Below, piece after piece: positions 55,213 through 64,000 of a stretch of DNA of 64,000 bases. Source of the stretch: Pseudomonadota bacterium (GTDB taxonomy: Bacteria > Pseudomonadota > Gammaproteobacteria > Steroidobacterales > Steroidobacteraceae); assembly GCA_018241505.1 (NCBI GenBank), contig JAFEDS010000020.1, positions 1 to 64,000 on the forward strand, written 5' to 3'. Below the pieces are notes generated by a model. That model was given only the letters and a program-made list of their open reading frames with translations. It was not told where the DNA came from and searched no databases. Made by a program: the position numbers and the translations under genes. Position 1 is the stretch's first letter, and each line of letters opens with the position of its first letter.

Positions 55213-55266
55213 CTGGTCGCATACCATGGTTTGCGGTGGCCACCCAGGCCGTTTTCACCGGCGCCA

Positions 55267-55295
55267 TTGGAAGGGGGAACCAAAACGGGTATAAT
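55267..55295 (+). promoter_or_regulatory. promoter of the Xre/MbcA-RES module
   Basis: TTGGAA (55267-55272), a 17-base spacer, and a perfect TATAAT (55290-55295). The GTG start of the antitoxin is 7 bases further, so a leaderless mRNA is predicted. Confidence 0.7.
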
Positions 55296-55302
55296 TCGGC
55301 GG

Positions 55303-55923
55303 GTGACGAATCTCCATATTACATCCGTTCTGCCGCCGTTCCAGGAAGAGGAACTGTATCCGCGCGCGACTCGCTTCTTGCGACGCGCCGATGCAATGGG
55401 TTTGCTCGAGGGAAAGATCGAGGAATTGAGCCCAGAGGTCGTGCGACGGGTGGCGCGCAAGTTGTCCAAGCGCGGGCTCGCGAGTGATGTTGCCGCCCGG
55501 CTGACTAGCGCGCCTACACCCTCCCGCGAAGAGTTCGCGCGGTATCTGGACGCCGCCCTGCTAGCTCTCAATGAGTCTCCTGTACCGGCGGCGGAGCTGA
55601 CGAAGCTCAACTCAATTTTGGGGCACGAGCTTCTGGCGGACCTGTTGGAGATCTCAACGGCCAGTATCCAGCGGTATCAGAGCGGGGACCGCGAGGCGCC
55701 GGACCTCGTAGCGGATCGCGCTCACTTCCTCACCGCCGTCATTTCGGCGCTGGAGGGCACCTACAATGAGTTTGGAGTGCGCCGCTGGTTTGGGCGTCCC
55801 CGCTCGACGTTCGGTGGGCGTAGCGCAAGGCAGTTGCTCACGCGTCGTTGGACGTCGCACGATGATTCCGCGCGGCAGGTTCTGAGCGCCGCGGAGTCCT
55901 TACAACACCTGGGCGCTACCTGA
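55303..55923 (+). CDS. Xre/MbcA/ParS-type antitoxin
   Basis: A 206-residue protein with an N-terminal helical Xre-like part and a C-terminal toxin-binding domain of the DUF2384 kind (EFGVRRWFGRPRSTFGGRSA, where the R-WF--P-S-F-G segment is diagnostic). Start placed at GTG 55303 because of the TATAAT 7 bases upstream. The frame is open to 55231 but that would lie before the promoter. It neutralises the RES toxin encoded 36 bases downstream and probably represses the pair. Confidence 0.88.
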   Translation: MTNLHITSVLPPFQEEELYPRATRFLRRADAMGLLEGKIEELSPEVVRRVARKLSKRGLASDVAARLTSAPTPSREEFARYLDAALLALNESPVPAAELTKLNSILGHELLADLLEISTASIQRYQSGDREAPDLVADRAHFLTAVISALEGTYNEFGVRRWFGRPRSTFGGRSARQLLTRRWTSHDDSARQVLSAAESLQHLGAT

Positions 55924-55959
55924 AGCATTGCCGCTGACGTTGCTAGACGGGTCAGAGCA

Positions 55960-56505
55960 GTGATTGTTTTTCGCGTCTGCGATTCACGCTTTCCATTCCT
56001 TTGGGACGCGGTCGCGGGCACGCGCCAACCACCCGCCCGCTGGCATGGCGTCGGCGAGGGCCCGGTGCAGTATTTTGCTGACACACCAACCGGGGCGTGG
56101 GCAGAGGTACTCCGACATGAAGAGATCACCGATCCGGCCGATCTAGCTGGATTCTCTGCGCGAATCTGGGCAGTCGACATCGGCGATGTCGAGATGCATG
56201 AACCGCAACTGCCACTGGATGCCCTCATTTCCAAGCCGGTCGGTTATGAAGCATGTCGAATCGAAGCCCGCCGGTTACGTGCTTTGGGTGCAACCCGGCT
56301 CTTAACTTTGTCCGCAGCGCTCAAACCAGGCGACGGGGCCGGATTTCAGGTGAGCACGTCCGGCCTGAAACGTGCACCAAGCCGCGATGCGAAGGTAGTC
56401 GTTCACTTCGGTCGCTTACCGGACGCAGAAGGTTGGTGTGCTGCCCAGGGTGCGCCCCCTGATGTTGAGGTTCTGAAGCATGTGAGGCCATTGGATTCGG
56501 CCTGA
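55960..56505 (+). CDS. RES-domain toxin
   Basis: RES toxins deplete NAD+ by phosphorolysis. 181 residues; the R-E-S residues are seen in VFRVCDSRFPFLWD, GAWAEVLRHEE and the later serine region TRLLTLSAALKPGD. RWHGVGEGPVQYFADTPTGA is a family segment. GTG start. With the antitoxin it forms a complete RES-Xre type II module between two catabolic operons. Confidence 0.88.
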   Translation: MIVFRVCDSRFPFLWDAVAGTRQPPARWHGVGEGPVQYFADTPTGAWAEVLRHEEITDPADLAGFSARIWAVDIGDVEMHEPQLPLDALISKPVGYEACRIEARRLRALGATRLLTLSAALKPGDGAGFQVSTSGLKRAPSRDAKVVVHFGRLPDAEGWCAAQGAPPDVEVLKHVRPLDSA

Positions 56506-56666
56506 AATCAGCATTGGCGCCCGCGCCCCTGCGTAGCCGCGAGCTACCGGCAACTCCATTCAGATCCAACTTCCCGCCGCGACTCGAGTTTGAGATCGCG
56601 CTCGGCCAACCCCTTCAGTCGCATGCTCGAAGGTCACGAGGCACGGACCTTTTTACTGATACGATG

Positions 56667-56720
56667 TCTCAAATGAGATGAACTATCATATTGACAGAAA
56701 CTATTTAAAAGCGTTTTAAT
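56667..56720 (+). promoter_or_regulatory. promoter and operator-like palindromes of the PhyH operon
   Basis: TTGACA (56691-56696), an 18-base spacer, and TTTAAT (56715-56720) precede the ATG at 56730. A palindrome TTAAAA-GCG-TTTTAA (56705-56719) covers the -10. A second, TCTCA-AA-TGAGA (56667-56678), lies just upstream of the -35. Both look like repressor sites; no regulator gene is in view in the operon. Confidence 0.55.
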
Positions 56721-56729
56721 AGCATCAAC

Positions 56730-58037
56730 ATGAGTACAAAACCACCAGTTCCGCTGATCGACCGAGTGGAGCTCGCCTCGCAACCGTGGCGCGCCGAGGC
56801 ACAGGGCTTTCTGGAAAGGCGTCTGCGACAGCCGGATGTACAGTTGTATGGCGCCCGCTATTCGATCTGTCGCGTTCTCGAGAATGCACCCCCGCACCTG
56901 GGTTTGGCCGGAAACCGGGCCACGCTTACCATCAGCATCGACGGCAATGGGGTTCGGGTTTCCGAGGAGGAAACTCCTGGCGTCGATCGCACCGAGTCGG
57001 CCGATTACAACCAGGCCCTTGCTGTGGTCACCACCGTGAGCGCGGGAGAGCCCTCGAATCTCGAACGGGCACACCGCGAGCTTGCGTATCGACATGGCGC
57101 TGGGAGCTGGAGAGTTGCGGGTGATCCGCCGAGCTCCCCGGTCATTCGCGAGTTGCTTTCCGACTTGCACGACCACATGGCGCGCCGGACGGTGACGAAT
57201 CCCGATCTCGATCATCGGATCCGTCATCTCGGCCTGGAGGCCAACCGGGCTCAGCTCGATGAGCAGGGATACACGATCCTGCGGAACGCGGTGAGCCACG
57301 AGTATGCCGACGAGGTCTGCGCAGCCTTGAACAAGGCTGTCGATGAGACCCGGGGCGTCGGTGCCCACGGAGTCGGCACCGGGCGTGACGGGGCAGTGGG
57401 CAATCTTCTCGTCCGGGGTCGTGTGTTCGAGGAGACGGCCCAACATCCCTGGGTTCTTGCCCTACAGGATCACGTTGTTGGGAAGGGCTGCCTCCTATCA
57501 ATCACCACGGGAATTCGTAAGGGCCCGGGCGACAACACGCACGTCGTTCACATCGACTACCCGTTGATCGAGGAGCCGCTTCCCCACTACTCGTTGAATT
57601 GCACGAGCATCTGGGCTCTGGAGGATTTTGACGAGATATCGGGTCCGACAGCGGTCATCCCGGCCAGCCACCGTCGCTACAACCGTACTCCCGTGCCGAA
57701 CGAGAACGCCCACGAGCTCATCCCCGTACTCATGCCCAAAGGCTCGATTGCCCTTTGGCGGGGAAATCTGTGGCATTCGGCGCTGGTTCGGACCAAGCCC
57801 GGGCGCCGTGTGACCCTGCACCAGAGCTACAGCCGCATCTATGTCCGCACACTGGATTGGTACCGGGACATCGATCCACGGATTCTCGAGAGGAACGGTC
57901 CGGCTTTGACCACTCTGTGCGGCCTCGACGACGTATTCGAGAAGAGTACAGATGCGGGCCCCTACGCCGAAGGCATTACCTATGCCCGCCGGAACTACGT
58001 GTTGCAACATGTCCCGACCAGAGGCGCAAAAAAATGA
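56730..58037 (+). CDS. phytanoyl-CoA dioxygenase (PhyH)-family protein with N-terminal extra domain
   Basis: Fe(II)/2-oxoglutarate oxygenase. The iron facial triad is seen as HIDY in NTHVVHIDYPLIEE and the distal His in RGNLWHSALVRTK; the 2OG-binding arginine is probably in KPGRRVTLHQS. The oxygenase occupies residues about 175-400 of 435. Residues 1-165 form another domain, including ATLTISIDGNGVRVSEEE and DYNQALAVV, that loosely recalls SCP2-like lipid-binding folds. First gene of the operon; ends overlapping the TonB receptor by 4 bases. Likely hydroxylates a hydrophobic substrate. Confidence 0.82.
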   Translation: MSTKPPVPLIDRVELASQPWRAEAQGFLERRLRQPDVQLYGARYSICRVLENAPPHLGLAGNRATLTISIDGNGVRVSEEETPGVDRTESADYNQALAVVTTVSAGEPSNLERAHRELAYRHGAGSWRVAGDPPSSPVIRELLSDLHDHMARRTVTNPDLDHRIRHLGLEANRAQLDEQGYTILRNAVSHEYADEVCAALNKAVDETRGVGAHGVGTGRDGAVGNLLVRGRVFEETAQHPWVLALQDHVVGKGCLLSITTGIRKGPGDNTHVVHIDYPLIEEPLPHYSLNCTSIWALEDFDEISGPTAVIPASHRRYNRTPVPNENAHELIPVLMPKGSIALWRGNLWHSALVRTKPGRRVTLHQSYSRIYVRTLDWYRDIDPRILERNGPALTTLCGLDDVFEKSTDAGPYAEGITYARRNYVLQHVPTRGAKK

Positions 58038-60421
58038 CCGACACGAGATGGCGACGCCCAGCCTGTACCCCGGTTCTCGGTGGGGTATTGCTACTCGTCT
58101 CAGGCACGGTGCGCGCCGAGTCGGATGCGGATCTCCGCGATTCACGCCCCGCTGCACGCCTCGAGCTCGAGGAGGTCATGGTCACCGCGCAGAAAAGTGA
58201 GGAGCCGCTGCGAGACGTGCCGATCTCGATGACGGTGTTGGGTTCGAGTTTCCTGGCAGAGCGGGCCGTGACCGACCTGGACGATCTCTCCCGCCTCGTG
58301 GGTAACTTCAAGGTCGATACCCAGGGAGGGGTCGAGCCGCCCCCCGACATCCGTATTCGCGGCTTTGGCACCGCGCAAGGCAACCGGGCGTTTGAACAAT
58401 CGGTCGGCCTGTCAATCGATGGGGATACCTTTGGGCGCCAGGAGTATTTCCAAGGCGCGCTCTTCGACCTCCAGCGTGTTGAGATTTTGAAGGGCCCGCA
58501 GGGCACGCTGTTCGGCAAGAACACGACGGCCGGGCTGGTGAACGTGGTACTCAGCGAACCCACCAACACCGCGAGCGGTTTCATTGACGCCCAGGGCGGA
58601 CAGCTCGGCAGCCGTCGAGTCGAGGCCGCTGTGGGTGGGCCGGTTATCCCAAATGTGCTGGACGTCCGGATTGCAGGGCTCGTGGACGATCGTGATGGCT
58701 ACGTGCGTAACACCACCGCAGAAACAGTTTCAGGGCTGTCCAGTAGCCTGGGTGGGAGAGATCGCGACGCTCTGCGGCTGAAGCTGAAGTTCCTCGATGT
58801 TCTGGGTGGGACCGTGGGTCTGACGGGCGAATGGTCCAGGGCCACCTCGAAGGGCCTGCCGTTCGAAATCACCAATGTCACGATACCGGCAGTCCAGCAG
58901 CTCTATCTCAAGTACGACCCTAATGCGGACACCCAAGGTGGAAATTTCGTCACATCCGAGGGCGATGCGGACGTTGCGAAACTCACAACGCGCCGAGTTG
59001 TACTCAACGGCGACTGGACGCTGGGCGGTTGGAATCTCGATCTTCTGGTGGGTGGCGCAACTCTCGAGTCCCCCAACCACACCGGCATTTCCTACAGCCC
59101 GGCGCCCGTTGGCTATGGCGACTTCAGGGATTCCAGTAAGCAGGTTACGGCGGAGTTTCGCGGCCGTTCAGGAGAGCTCGAAGGACTGCTCGGCTTGCGC
59201 GAGATATTCGGTCTCGGCCTGGGCTCGAGCCGACTGACCGCCGGACTCTTCTATCAGTGCAAGACCTATGACGCGACAACCGCGGTCGGCTTCAATTTAC
59301 CGGTGTACACCGAATGGGCATTGGCCTCCTTCGGCATTCCTCCCGAGCCCACCGGAGCTGATGCAGCCCGGCAGGCACCCCTGAATTTCCTGCTCTCGGA
59401 CTATTCAGACAGGACGGCGTCCTATGCCGCGTTCACACATCTCGAGTGGCGGCCCATTGATCGCTGGGCGCTCGAGCTGGGGATGCGCCTCACCCGGGAG
59501 GAAAAGGATGCTGACATCCGGAACTACTTCAATAACGCCACGGATGCCGCCATATTCGGTGCGCTCGGCGAAACGGCGTTTGACTTCCGGGGTCTGCACC
59601 TCTCATCGCTCGCCTTCACGCCCAAGGTGGCCCTGCGTCGCGATCTGAGCGAAAACACCAACATTTTCGCCAGTTGGACCCGAGGCTTCAAGAGCGGTGG
59701 ATTCAACCAGCAGGCGACCTCGCCCGATGGCATCCGCTACAAGGACGAAGTAATGCAGTCGTGGGAGGTTGGCTCGAAGTCCCGCTTCTTCGATGGCCGC
59801 GCCGCGGTTGATGTGCAACTCTTCTCGATGACTGCCAAGGACCTCCAGGTGTTCACGGTTGACGATACCGGCGGCGTCCTTGGCACGCCTGTGGTCATCA
59901 ATGCGGGGCGAGCGCGCTCTCGCGGCGTCGAGCTCGACATGGATTTTCTGCCGGCCAAGTGGCTTACATTGCGCGCTTCCGGCGGGTTTGATGATACGAA
60001 GTACCTCGACTATCAAAACGGCCCCTGCGAGAACGATCGCCAGGTCAGTCCAGGTTGCAACCTGACTGGTATGCCGCTGGAGTTCACACCGCGATTCAAC
60101 GGCAGCCTGACGAGCAGCATTCGAATTCCCCTCAACAATCGCGGACTGCAGGCGTTGACGAGTCTTACGGCGCACTACGAAGGCGCGCGTTTTATCTCGC
60201 GGACGGATGATCCGCGGACCCGGGAATCGGCCCGGACGACCCTCGCACTGCAGGCCGGGATCACGCGTCCGGACCAGGGGTGGACGATTCTCATCAGCGG
60301 AGAAAACATCACCAATCAGCGGGTGGCGTACTTCCGGGATGTCGCCAAGGTCGCCGGATCCATGCGCGAATACCTCGATCCGCCGCGAGTATGGATGGCC
60401 ACGATGCGTTGGTCATTCTGA
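58034..60421 (+). CDS. TonB-dependent receptor
   Basis: 795 residues. Signal peptide PVLGGVLLLVSGTVRA, TonB-box region LELEEVMVTAQKSEEPLRDV, plug with VEILKGPQGTLFGKNTTAGL, and a barrel ending in RWSF. The plug has the 'DVPIS' form common in receptors for hydrophobic organic substrates in proteobacterial degraders. Start ATG 58034 overlaps the PhyH stop by 4 bases; the longer open frame upstream is a shadow of PhyH. Confidence 0.92.
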   Translation: MTDTRWRRPACTPVLGGVLLLVSGTVRAESDADLRDSRPAARLELEEVMVTAQKSEEPLRDVPISMTVLGSSFLAERAVTDLDDLSRLVGNFKVDTQGGVEPPPDIRIRGFGTAQGNRAFEQSVGLSIDGDTFGRQEYFQGALFDLQRVEILKGPQGTLFGKNTTAGLVNVVLSEPTNTASGFIDAQGGQLGSRRVEAAVGGPVIPNVLDVRIAGLVDDRDGYVRNTTAETVSGLSSSLGGRDRDALRLKLKFLDVLGGTVGLTGEWSRATSKGLPFEITNVTIPAVQQLYLKYDPNADTQGGNFVTSEGDADVAKLTTRRVVLNGDWTLGGWNLDLLVGGATLESPNHTGISYSPAPVGYGDFRDSSKQVTAEFRGRSGELEGLLGLREIFGLGLGSSRLTAGLFYQCKTYDATTAVGFNLPVYTEWALASFGIPPEPTGADAARQAPLNFLLSDYSDRTASYAAFTHLEWRPIDRWALELGMRLTREEKDADIRNYFNNATDAAIFGALGETAFDFRGLHLSSLAFTPKVALRRDLSENTNIFASWTRGFKSGGFNQQATSPDGIRYKDEVMQSWEVGSKSRFFDGRAAVDVQLFSMTAKDLQVFTVDDTGGVLGTPVVINAGRARSRGVELDMDFLPAKWLTLRASGGFDDTKYLDYQNGPCENDRQVSPGCNLTGMPLEFTPRFNGSLTSSIRIPLNNRGLQALTSLTAHYEGARFISRTDDPRTRESARTTLALQAGITRPDQGWTILISGENITNQRVAYFRDVAKVAGSMREYLDPPRVWMATMRWSF

Positions 60422-60439
60422 TTGATCGAAGGTGCAACA

Positions 60440-61279
60440 ATGTCGAAGTTCGACGACTATCAGAGTAAATACGAGTACATCCAGCTTCGCCGGGAGGAGG
60501 GCATCGTCGAGATGCGCCTGCACAGCGGCGGCGGCGAGTTGAAATGGTCGCTCTTTCCTGACATAGAAGTCGCGGATGCGCTTTGGGAAGTCGGCCAGGA
60601 TGAGGACACCCGTTGCATCATTATCACGGGAACGGGAAATACATTCTGCGCGTCCATAGACAGTGAGGATGTCCGTGACTCCATCCAGAAAGCAGGCGGC
60701 CCCATCGAGCTCCTATCGGGAGTCGTTACGAAGAGCGAGGGCCAACGGCTGCAAATGAATCATCTGGCGGCGCAGGTTCCCATCATTGCGGCCGTGAACG
60801 GCCCGGCCAGTGTGCATGGGGAAATCGCGCTCCTGTGTGACATCGTGATCTGCACGGAAGACACCTTCTTCCAGGATTCACCGCATTTTCCACAGACCCT
60901 GGTACCAGGTGACGGCGTCCATGTCGTTTATCCTGCAGTGCTCGGGCCAAACTTGGCTCGCTACTTCCTCCTGACCGGTATGAGGCTCGGCGCCAAGGAG
61001 GCCTGGCAGCGGGGCCTGGTCGCCGAAATACACAAGCGCGATGAGTTGCTCGATCGTGCATGGACGCTCGCTCGCGCCATTGCCTCGCGGCCGCCCGCGA
61101 TGGTGCGTGCGACACGCGCATTGCTGGTGCAGAAGCTACGGCAAGAAATGCTCCAGTACCTACCGCACGGGATGACGTTGGAAGCCTTGGCAGCCGTGGT
61201 CGGTTATGCAACACACACTCAGCCCAAATGGAATCCCATTCCGAGGGACCTGAGCGTCGGCTACCGGTGTGAGCCTTAA
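60440..61279 (+). CDS. 6-oxocamphor hydrolase-like crotonase (beta-diketone hydrolase)
   Basis: Crotonase-fold protein of 279 residues. Most family members act on CoA esters. 6-oxocamphor hydrolase cleaves a cyclic beta-diketone C-C bond by retro-Claisen reaction, with His122, His145 and Asp154. Here the same residues sit at identical spacing: His126 (ASVHGEIALL), His149 and Asp158 (DSPHFPQTLVPGDGVHVVYP). The N-terminal YQSKYEYIQLRREEG and EGQRLQMNHLAAQVPIIAAV also match that enzyme as I recall it. ATG at 60440 with GAAGG upstream. Starts 18 bases after the receptor and abuts the next gene (TAAATG). Substrate unknown. Confidence 0.82.
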   Translation: MSKFDDYQSKYEYIQLRREEGIVEMRLHSGGGELKWSLFPDIEVADALWEVGQDEDTRCIIITGTGNTFCASIDSEDVRDSIQKAGGPIELLSGVVTKSEGQRLQMNHLAAQVPIIAAVNGPASVHGEIALLCDIVICTEDTFFQDSPHFPQTLVPGDGVHVVYPAVLGPNLARYFLLTGMRLGAKEAWQRGLVAEIHKRDELLDRAWTLARAIASRPPAMVRATRALLVQKLRQEMLQYLPHGMTLEALAAVVGYATHTQPKWNPIPRDLSVGYRCEP

Positions 61280-62290
61280 ATGCGGGCCGCGGTAATCTAC
61301 GGTCACGGCGACCGCGATCAGATCCGGATCGTCAATGACTATCCGGATCCTGTGCCCGAACCGGGCTGGGTGCGGTTGCGCGTGCGCGCCACCTCGCTGA
61401 ACTTTCACGATGTGTTTTCGCGCCGCGGCATGCCCGGCATCAAGATTCCTTTGCCCTTGATTATCGGGACAGACATTGCCGGGGAAATCGATGCGCTGGG
61501 CGATGGCGTTCAGGGCTGGAATCCCGGCGAGCGCGTGCTCGTCGACCCAATGCCTTGTGAGGGCAGCCGCTGGAAATTCGTCGGCGAACAATTCGACGGT
61601 GGGCGCGCCGAGTACTGTTGTGTACACGCCTCGCAACTCATGAGACTTCCCGCAGAGGTCAGTTTCGAACGGGCTGCCGCGTTGCCGCTCGCCTATGCGA
61701 CCGCGCACCGGATGTTGGTCACGCGCGGCCGTTTGCGTGCGGGGGAGACGGTATTGGTGATCGGCGCCTCCGGTGGGGTGGGAACGGGCTGCGTCATGCT
61801 GGCCAAGCAGATGGGTTGCACCGTGATCGCCTGTGCCGGCTCAAACGACAAGCTCGAGAAACTGCGGCAGATTGGTGCCGACCACCGGATCAACTATCGA
61901 GAGCGGAACATGCGCGAGGCAGTCCACGCGATAGTGGGAAAGCCGCGCCTGACAGGCGTCGGCGGAGTCGATGTCGCGGTCAACTATTCAGGTGGAAAGA
62001 CCTGGAAGGAAACGATCCTGTGTTTGAAAACAGCGGGCCGGCTGCTGACCTGCGGGGCGACGGCGGGCTTCGACGAGGAGATTGATGTCCGTTACGTATT
62101 CACCTATGAGCACGAAGTGCTGGGCTCGACCGGCTGGCGGCGCTCCGATCTCGAGGCCCTGCTGAAGATGACCGCGGAGGGCCGCCTGGTGCCGGCAATC
62201 GAACACGTGCTGCCGCTCGATGACCTCGCGGAGGCCGAGCGCATGATGGAAGAGCGCGAAGTGTTCGGCAAAATCGTCATCCGGCCGTAG
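61280..62290 (+). CDS. MDR-superfamily oxidoreductase (quinone-oxidoreductase-like)
   Basis: 336 residues. N-terminal GroES-like domain (TSLNFHDVFSRRGMPGIKIP) and NAD(P)-binding LVIGASGGVGTGCVMLAKQM. The catalytic zinc cysteine is replaced (NFHD) and the four-cysteine structural lobe is missing, so it is a zinc-independent reductase of the QOR or enoyl-reductase type. Begins right at the preceding stop codon. Confidence 0.88.
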   Translation: MRAAVIYGHGDRDQIRIVNDYPDPVPEPGWVRLRVRATSLNFHDVFSRRGMPGIKIPLPLIIGTDIAGEIDALGDGVQGWNPGERVLVDPMPCEGSRWKFVGEQFDGGRAEYCCVHASQLMRLPAEVSFERAAALPLAYATAHRMLVTRGRLRAGETVLVIGASGGVGTGCVMLAKQMGCTVIACAGSNDKLEKLRQIGADHRINYRERNMREAVHAIVGKPRLTGVGGVDVAVNYSGGKTWKETILCLKTAGRLLTCGATAGFDEEIDVRYVFTYEHEVLGSTGWRRSDLEALLKMTAEGRLVPAIEHVLPLDDLAEAERMMEEREVFGKIVIRP

Positions 62291-62301
62291 AAGATTCTCC
62301 G

Positions 62302-62715
62302 ATGGCACTCACTCTCGAGCAAATGAACAATTGGCTGGCGCTCGGGCCATTTAATGCGTTTTGCCGCCTCCGTGTCATCGAGGCGGATCTTGATGCGCAA
62401 ACTCTGGTGATGGTCATGCCGATTCGCGAGGAATTCGAGCGTATCCCGGCTTCGAGGCAGTGGCATGGAGGTCCCATCGCTTGTCTGGTCGATACGGCGG
62501 GCTGCTTTGCGGTGTCGATGGTCCAGGGACACGCCGTGCCGACAGTCAACTTCCGGGTCGATTACTTCCGCCCTGCGATCCAGACCGACCTGACTGCCAA
62601 GGCGACAGTGCGCCGCGTCGGCAAAAGCGTAGCGGCTGCCGATGTGGATGTATTCAACGACAAGGGCCAACTGCTGGCTGTCGGGCGGGCGACTTTCAGC
62701 AGCGCGGCCGGATGA
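62302..62715 (+). CDS. PaaI-like hotdog thioesterase
   Basis: 137-residue single hotdog domain with RQWHGGPIACLVDTAGCFAV (HGG with catalytic Asp) and VPTVNFRVDYFRPAI. Probably hydrolyses or edits acyl-CoA made in the pathway. 11 bases after the MDR gene. Confidence 0.87.
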   Translation: MALTLEQMNNWLALGPFNAFCRLRVIEADLDAQTLVMVMPIREEFERIPASRQWHGGPIACLVDTAGCFAVSMVQGHAVPTVNFRVDYFRPAIQTDLTAKATVRRVGKSVAAADVDVFNDKGQLLAVGRATFSSAAG

Positions 62716-62740
62716 GATCGTCAATGAGCCGGAGAATGAA

Positions 62741-64000
62741 GTGCTGAGATCTGGCCGCGAATACCTCGAATCGATTCGCGATGGAAGAACGATATACGTC
62801 GGCTCCGAGCGGATTCACGATGTCACAACGCATCCGTTGTTTGAAAACTGTGCCCGCACCTACGCGGCGTTGTTCGACCTGAAGGCCGATCCAGCGAACC
62901 GCGACACACTCACTTACGAAGCAGAAGGTGAGCGGTTCAGCGCCTACTATCTGCGCCCGAGACACAAGGAGGACCTTCGCAAGCGCAACCTTGCGCACAA
63001 GCGCATAGCCGAATTCTGCCTCGGAGTGATGGGGCGGACTCCTGACGCTGTCGCTGGGAGCATCACGGGGTTGGCCATGAATCCAGGGTACCTGGCCGGC
63101 CAGAGCGGCGGCCACGCTGACAATGTGTTGAGTATTTATGAACACATGCGCCGCAATGATGTGTTCTCGACTTATGCGATCGTCCCACCTCAAGGCGCCA
63201 GGAATAAGGACTACTACCAATCGAGCGGGTTGGCGCAGCCTGGGCTGGCCGTCACCTCGGAGGCCGATTCCGGCGTCGTTTTGAACGGCGTCAAGATGCT
63301 TGCCACGGGGGCCGTGTACGCGGACGAGGTGTTGATCGGCAACATCATGCCGCTTGCACCCGACCAGCGGAAGCAATCGATCACGTGCGTCATTCCACTC
63401 AACCTGCCTGGCCTGTCTCTTTGGGCACGAACACCGTTCGTTCGGCCCGGACGTTCGGAATTCGACAATCCATTGACACACAGATTTGACGAGTCGGACA
63501 CCGTTCTCGTCTTCAAAGACGTGAAGGTGCCGTGGGAGAAGATCATCGTCCATGACAATGCCGAGCTGTCCCGGAACATCTATGTCAAAACGCCGGCTCA
63601 CGTCATTGCCAATCACCAGAGCAACGTTCGATTTGCGACCAAGTTGCGTTTCATGTTGAGCGTGGCGAGTCTCGTGACAAAAGCCACGGGCGCGCGCGAT
63701 ATTCCTGCCGTCCGTGACACGTTGGGGCGTCTTGCTGCGTACGAAGCGGGCTTCAGCGCAATGGTCGATGGGCAGATCGAAGCGTTCCAGGAAGTGGATG
63801 GCGGCTATGTGATGTTCAATCGCCGCTATCTCTACGCCGCGGTCCATTGGGCCATGGAGAATCATTCCGCGATCGTTGACACCCTGCGTGAATTGATGGG
63901 AGGCGGGCACTTTCAGTTCCCGGCGAGCATCAATGTCATCCAGGATCCGGAGCTCGAGTCGATGTTCCGCAACTATTGGCGCGCCGGTGATGATGAGCCC
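62741..64000 (+). CDS. HpaB-type flavin-dependent monooxygenase (truncated by window end)
   Basis: 420 residues visible of an expected 480-520. FADH2-using oxygenase of the 4-hydroxyphenylacetate 3-hydroxylase family, needing a separate flavin reductase. Family segments: SGREYLESIRDGRTIYVGSE, LTYEAEGERFSAYYLRP, DYYQSSGLAQPGLAVTSEAD, DVKVPWEKIIVHDNAE and LRELMGGGHFQFPAS. GTG start at 62741 with GGAG six bases upstream. Could equally act on a non-phenolic substrate such as a cyclic ketone or diketone precursor; no reductase partner is seen before the edge. Confidence 0.9.
   Translation, partial: MLRSGREYLESIRDGRTIYVGSERIHDVTTHPLFENCARTYAALFDLKADPANRDTLTYEAEGERFSAYYLRPRHKEDLRKRNLAHKRIAEFCLGVMGRTPDAVAGSITGLAMNPGYLAGQSGGHADNVLSIYEHMRRNDVFSTYAIVPPQGARNKDYYQSSGLAQPGLAVTSEADSGVVLNGVKMLATGAVYADEVLIGNIMPLAPDQRKQSITCVIPLNLPGLSLWARTPFVRPGRSEFDNPLTHRFDESDTVLVFKDVKVPWEKIIVHDNAELSRNIYVKTPAHVIANHQSNVRFATKLRFMLSVASLVTKATGARDIPAVRDTLGRLAAYEAGFSAMVDGQIEAFQEVDGGYVMFNRRYLYAAVHWAMENHSAIVDTLRELMGGGHFQFPASINVIQDPELESMFRNYWRAGDDEP

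Follow-up and report, generated by a model that had tools for sequence, protein, structure and literature searches.

The window, that is, the whole stretch of DNA analysed here, comprises the first 64,000 nucleotides of contig JAFEDS010000020.1 from a Steroidobacteraceae genome (assembly GCA_018241505.1; 7.88 Mb across 46 contigs), and contig and window coordinates are therefore identical. Near its end begins an operon of ten genes, all on the + strand, which spans contig positions 56730-66785 and in which a PhyH-family oxygenase and a candidate beta-diketone hydrolase are followed by a flavin monooxygenase and its neighbours:

56730-58037, + strand: PhyH-family Fe(II)/2-oxoglutarate oxygenase (Pfam PhyH 1.2e-17, residues 177-354) with an extra, probably SCP2-like N-terminal domain (about residues 1-160)
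58034-60421, + strand: TonB-dependent receptor (Pfam barrel 2.5e-31, plug 5.1e-14)
60440-61279, + strand: crotonase of the 6-oxocamphor hydrolase (OCH) type, a beta-diketone hydrolase candidate by structure-sequence scores and catalytic residues
61280-62290, + strand: medium-chain dehydrogenase/reductase (MDR); best NCBIfam match PIG3 quinone oxidoreductase, below cut-off; closest structure 2eih, an alcohol dehydrogenase
62302-62715, + strand: hotdog-fold thioesterase, PaaI-like (Pfam 4HBT 3.1e-12; TIGR00369 above cut-off)
62741-64192, + strand, crossing the window end at 64000: oxygenase part of an HpaB-family two-component flavin monooxygenase (HpaB_N and HpaB domains)
64182-64706, + strand: cupin (HxH..E motif)
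64740-65537, + strand: alpha/beta hydrolase, RutD/PcaD-like (Ser94-Asp214-His242)
65534-66322, + strand: aspartate-dehydrogenase-like (AspDH-like) protein, subfamily score above cut-off
66300-66785, + strand: flavin reductase (Pfam Flavin_Reduct 8.1e-39)

The intergenic distances among the first six genes are -4, 18, 0, 11 and 25 bases (ATG or GTG starts, placed by inspection), the receptor ATG sharing four bases with the PhyH stop and the crotonase and MDR genes abutting, and from HpaB through the flavin reductase the spacing ranges from -23 to +33 bases. A run of ten genes in one direction, with several overlaps, is what an operon ordinarily looks like. The initial annotation of the window had described the first six genes as co-directional and tightly packed, which they are, with strand, place and families as named there. 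The flavin reductase that it sought past position 64000 lies in the same operon, and the coenzyme A (CoA) ligase and regulator it also sought are both present in a convergent cluster described below. No promoter passed a sigma-70 scan upstream of PhyH; by eye, TTGACA and TTTAAT separated by 18 bases can be made out at 56691, a pair that fails the scan rule and lies very near the PhyH ATG.

Compared with the sequences of solved structures, the crotonase scores highest with OCH (1o8u; 195.8 and 191.2 bits), followed by the Anabaena beta-diketone hydrolase (ABDH; 2j5g, 172.6 bits), whereas the best CoA-type crotonase reaches just 84.1 bits. In the alignment W40, H122, H145, D154 and E244 of OCH are all retained; the last four we take to be the catalytic residues of OCH, and H122 is the residue altered in structure entry 1szo. 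H145, D154 and E244 are present in all of 18 relatives drawn from plasmids and other genomes, and H122 in 17; none of the four is retained in the enoyl-CoA hydratase encoded in the neighbouring cluster. Scores and catalytic residues thus rule out an ordinary enoyl-CoA hydratase, and the OCH-like assignment made in the initial annotation, which had named a best alignment with CoA-dependent hydratases as the observation that would speak against it, is borne out. This predicted enzyme is best read as splitting a 1,3-diketone by a retro-Claisen reaction, on good evidence that falls short of proof.

The two best-scoring enzymes, 1o8u and 2j5g, belong to the same crotonase superfamily and share the catalytic His/His/Asp/Glu; the setting differs in that the operon here carries PhyH and HpaB, with no cytochrome P450 among the families found. 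Neither the ten operon genes nor the convergent cluster gave a family match that would indicate a camphor-type P450 system; one cluster gene (431 aa) matched no family. On a Paraburkholderia sprentiae plasmid (L065, by annotation) an OCH relative stands after a P450 and a GMC oxidase and before EstA, and the same order of P450, GMC oxidase, OCH and EstA occurs in a genome of the same class (L154, by Pfam), a position that fits a camphor-like logic of hydroxylating, oxidising and cleaving. Both operons resemble the one described here in that an OCH-type enzyme adjoins oxidising enzymes able to form a diketone, although the oxygenase is of another type; HpaB, cupin and TonB receptor are not annotated beside OCH in L065, and L154 holds no relatives of the operon's HpaB, cupin and receptor. 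Hydrolytic ring opening by a crotonase is also found in steroid C/D-ring degradation, where EchA20 opens the ring (PMC6678751); in contrast to the CoA-free cleavage considered here, EchA20 and IpdAB work on CoA esters.

The sixth gene begins what looks like a separate module. With HpaB_N and HpaB domains and a flavin reductase in the same operon, its product classes as a group D flavin monooxygenase and shares the two-component architecture of the 4-hydroxyphenylacetate 3-monooxygenase HpaB/HpaC. It differs from that enzyme in its score against TIGR02309, 272.6 bits under an equivalog cut-off of 480.2, and in its pocket, where R100, Y104, H142, S197 and T198 of the Thermus enzyme, presumably the substrate residues, correspond to R, A, Y, I and M, so that one of the five is kept. 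The identity of a 4-hydroxyphenylacetate hydroxylase is excluded on both counts, and the alignment places the operon HpaB in a subfamily with its own predicted substrate pocket. The initial annotation had counted HpaB among the oxygenases that make ketones for ring opening; the family hydroxylates phenols, we know of no ketone-forming relative, and here the protein accompanies a cupin and a hydrolase, so that this role was abandoned. A monooxygenase of the pyrrole-2-carboxylate type, an enzyme named in a review (PMC6165268), was considered for HpaB by name alone.

A scan of one genome per species over 84,980 species, keyed on two short peptide patterns and hence able to miss relatives, returned 51 HpaB loci. 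Ten of these, from alpha- and betaproteobacteria, form a close group with HpaB at 58-74% identity; a cupin relative is present in eight of the ten, the hydrolase in seven, and the AspDH-like gene and a flavin reductase relative in two each. The two loci without a cupin are contigs ending within or at the end of HpaB. Relatives of these four genes are found in none of the remaining 41 loci, and PhyH and OCH in none of the 51; an MDR relative occurs in 7/51, a receptor relative in 1/51 and a thioesterase relative in 1/51 (L111, adjoining the MDR; tblastn E 1e-8). At HpaB position 104, in a tally that omits one of the 51 loci because of a split match, the operon protein and nine loci, every one a member of the close group, have Ala or Thr, and His or Gln stands there in the remaining 41 and in two relatives on plasmids (L061, L062). 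By annotation a cupin follows HpaB on both plasmids as well, so position 104 is a marker of the close subfamily but not of HpaB-cupin pairs in general.

The modules of HpaB, cupin and alpha/beta hydrolase, in part with AspDH, of Propylenella, Burkholderiaceae, Bosea and Rhodoplanes thus share with the operon the HpaB subfamily and its neighbours, but PhyH, OCH, the thioesterase and a related receptor are missing from the stretches of sequence retrieved around them. An importer substrate-binding protein, confirmed by Pfam, is present in two close loci (L068, L074); near the HpaB module of the second, from Bosea, there is also a MarR regulator. L111 of the distant group has both a UbiD decarboxylase and a VanA-type Rieske oxygenase near HpaB, while L068 of the close group has the decarboxylase and L046, another distant locus, the Rieske oxygenase; neighbours of these two kinds suit aromatic catabolism. 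From these comparisons HpaB belongs with the downstream genes, in what looks like an aromatic-ring module.

The other members of this putative module are less easily placed. The closest solved relative of the cupin is quercetin 2,3-dioxygenase, a weak match (36 bits). In the riboflavin/lumichrome pathway the cupin LumY acts after ring opening (PMC12746152), a precedent that makes it unsafe to equate the cupin with a dioxygenase; the pathway as described there does not match the operon. The AspDH-like protein, at 260.8 bits against a subfamily cut-off of 177, hints at a nitrogen-bearing intermediate.

Two further gene settings of HpaB relatives were seen in the scan and on plasmids. In L046, HpaB with His104 adjoins the VanA-type Rieske oxygenase and two open reading frames read as FAD monooxygenases, and in L111 it adjoins the UbiD decarboxylase; this wider subfamily possibly serves another uncharacterised aromatic pathway. 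The plasmids L061 (Caballeronia) and L062 (Thioclava) carry, by annotation, a flavin reductase, an HpaB-like gene, a cupin and an amidase in this order; close by lie a MarR regulator, a DUF2848 gene and an ABC importer of the branched-chain type. This gene set possibly belongs to a related pathway for a nitrogen compound.

At the upstream end of the operon, PhyH retains H274, D276, H349 and Arg359/360, which we take to be the metal triad (HxD...H) and the distal 2-oxoglutarate arginine of PhyH oxygenases. Its residues 1-172 match no Pfam family and, by sequence, no entry of a structure library. A search of 229 genomes of the class (E <=1e-5) found this N-domain in the source genome only, at two places, the second being a stand-alone 143-aa gene at 79730-80161 on the + strand (36% identity, E 7.5e-11), which has no NCBIfam match. 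A profile of the N-domain, built from three sequences only, was compared by hhalign with 18 PF02036 sequences, 17 from genomes of the same genus and one from the source genome (18 of 22 places were used, four being dropped for an uncertain reading frame), and reached 70.6% (P 3.9e-5). Forty column-shuffled controls gave at most 0.8% (P >=0.068), and the HpaB and OCH profiles 0.1% and 1.1%. The N-domain is thus probably similar to SCP2 lipid carriers, a weak likeness yet above the controls.

The stand-alone copy lies about 22 kb from PhyH, between a PaaK-like gene and a TetR regulator at the far end of an acyl-CoA cluster on the - strand that converges on the operon:

66831-68315, - strand: amidase
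68281-69447, - strand: CaiB transferase
69444-70598, - strand: acyl-CoA dehydrogenase
70595-71818, - strand: SCPx-type thiolase of the lipid-transfer-protein type (667.8 bits, cut-off 436)
71863-73104, - strand: amidohydrolase
73124-73981, - strand: enoyl-CoA hydratase
73978-74778, - strand: SDR
74807-75445, - strand: VOC
75462-76985, - strand: CoA ligase
76970-78280, - strand: BAAT-like hydrolase (Pfam Bile_Hydr_Trans and BAAT_C)
78315-79610, - strand: 431-aa gene, read as PaaK-like, no family match
80223-80909, - strand: TetR regulator

The shared N-domain is the best evidence that operon and acyl-CoA cluster may serve one pathway, and through its SCP2-like character it is also the strongest sign in the sequence that the substrate is hydrophobic, a view to which it lends some support. 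The initial annotation had also proposed a hydrophobic substrate, and this part of it keeps some support from the SCP2-like domain on PhyH and the SCPx-type thiolase nearby; its own basis, a bulky ligand deduced from the TonB receptor, is not supported. The source genome holds at least 116 TonB receptor barrels (116 of 182 candidates scored) and eight PhyH places. By itself, therefore, neither gene points to a special substrate, and the receptor was dropped as evidence.

Two observations concern the surroundings. The BAAT-like protein combines bile-acid-CoA:amino-acid N-acyltransferase and thioester-hydrolase domains within the acyl-CoA cluster. Directly upstream of the operon, at 55231-56505, a RES-domain protein (Pfam RES) is preceded by a 230-aa gene without a Pfam match, a layout that we take to resemble a RES / Xre toxin-antitoxin pair; PADLOC returned no match.

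Conservation of the gene order was examined in samples of 296 genomes of the order and 398 of the phylum, the counts including the source genome (E 1e-40 for OCH and HpaB at the order level). OCH relatives occur in 11/296 and 4/398 genomes and HpaB relatives in 42 of the 296. PhyH is found in 3/296, where both matches outside the source genome do not cover the N-domain, and at full length in 2/398, the one outside the source genome having 37% identity. Mapping of OCH neighbourhoods covered ten other loci of the order (three contigs <12 kb, one 3.4 kb), three other loci of the phylum and, by annotation, 5 of 35 plasmid records; PhyH or HpaB stands beside OCH in none of these neighbourhoods, and the mapped loci of the order have no thioesterase with OCH either. 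One genome of the order (G210) has OCH and an HpaB relative (30%) on separate contigs. Among the samples and the HpaB-keyed scan, no other locus showed the order of the six genes or that of all ten, and absence of conservation had been named in the initial annotation as counting against its proposal. A literature search, most subscription papers being outside its reach, found no pathway of this gene order described.

Taken together, we read the locus, with a probability of roughly 0.5, as a ten-gene catabolic operon of two modules, one cleaving a diketone upstream and one acting on an aromatic ring downstream. From gene content, packing, families, conserved residues, the conserved downstream module and the shared N-domain we infer the substrate, the order of the steps and every reaction. 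The substrate would most likely be a hydrophobic molecule that contains both an aromatic portion and one from which a diketone can form. The TonB receptor would let the compound in, and the SCP2-like domain would present it to PhyH for hydroxylation of an aliphatic or alicyclic carbon. The MDR may set the oxidation state, either forming a ketone or reducing an enone. The OCH-type crotonase would then hydrate the resulting 1,3-diketone and break the C-C bond in a CoA-free retro-Claisen reaction yielding a keto acid, and the thioesterase would work on a later CoA ester. HpaB and the flavin reductase would hydroxylate the aromatic ring (phenolic, possibly N-bearing), which the cupin would open or rearrange before the alpha/beta hydrolase cleaves the product, and the AspDH-like enzyme may process a product bearing an amino or imino group. 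For the acyl parts, the convergent acyl-CoA cluster would complete the breakdown.

Several points weigh against this reading. Among the genomes searched the full order is known from a single one, which gives selection on the whole operon no support. No dehydrogenase is certain to form the diketone, the nearest families of the MDR being a mixture of quinone oxidoreductase and alcohol dehydrogenase. The SCP2 match is a profile comparison built on three sequences. An AspDH-like gene is at odds with a nitrogen-free terpenoid, and the downstream genes could act on a different, unrelated compound, with nothing but the transcript in common with the upstream ones.

The most far-reaching reading, to which we give clearly less than an even chance, is an aerobic pathway so far undescribed, degrading a single natural product that is hydrophobic, probably N-bearing and built of an aromatic ring and a part that is alicyclic or a diketone; a carrier-fused oxygenase would deliver the compound, the OCH-type enzyme would cleave it CoA-free, and the flavin monooxygenase, cupin, hydrolase and imine dehydrogenase would consume the aromatic half. 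That two pathways merely share a transcript, an upstream set for a hydrophobic compound and an unrelated HpaB-cupin-hydrolase-AspDH cassette, acquired separately and inserted by chance, is unlikely but deserves to be taken seriously: the downstream module exists without the upstream one, in Bosea with its own MarR regulator and periplasmic-binding-protein importer nearby, and neither PhyH nor OCH accompanies HpaB in the 51 loci. Against such an insertion, only 25 bases separate the thioesterase stop from the HpaB start, leaving no room for a regulator gene, and GC content is similar on both sides, 0.607-0.614 at 56000-62000 and 0.592 at 62000-64000, the window end.

A terpenoid or steroid-like ring compound, whose one skeleton would be worked on by all ten genes, with OCH opening a 1,3-diketone of alicyclic type, agrees with the OCH-type crotonase, the SCP2-like domain and the above-cut-off SCPx-type lipid-transfer thiolase. 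We nevertheless consider it improbable, as the families found in the operon include no P450, HpaB and cupin indicate an aromatic ring and the aspartate dehydrogenase indicates nitrogen; a KshA-domain search was silent here and in every control genome, and is uninformative on this question. A plant polyphenol or diarylheptanoid of the flavonoid or curcuminoid type, from which beta-diketone cleavage would release an aromatic acid for the downstream module, would suit the aromatic look of that module, the quercetin 2,3-dioxygenase likeness of the cupin and a distant match of the MDR to a curcumin-reductase model (58.9 bits, cut-off 440). These hints are all at the family level, however, the crotonase retains the pocket Trp of the camphor enzyme (W40) and the AspDH-like gene is left without explanation, so that a substrate of this kind appears very doubtful.

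The enzyme kinds in the operon are all known, and its novelty is their combination. To our knowledge few OCH-type hydrolases have an established physiological substrate, and the operon supplies one of them with a defined gene context and testable partners. The module of HpaB, cupin, hydrolase and, in part, AspDH is common to alpha- and betaproteobacteria, and the literature search found no description of it. Finally, the locus presents a PhyH oxygenase with a probable built-in lipid-carrier domain, a second copy of which stands beside the neighbouring acyl-CoA cluster.

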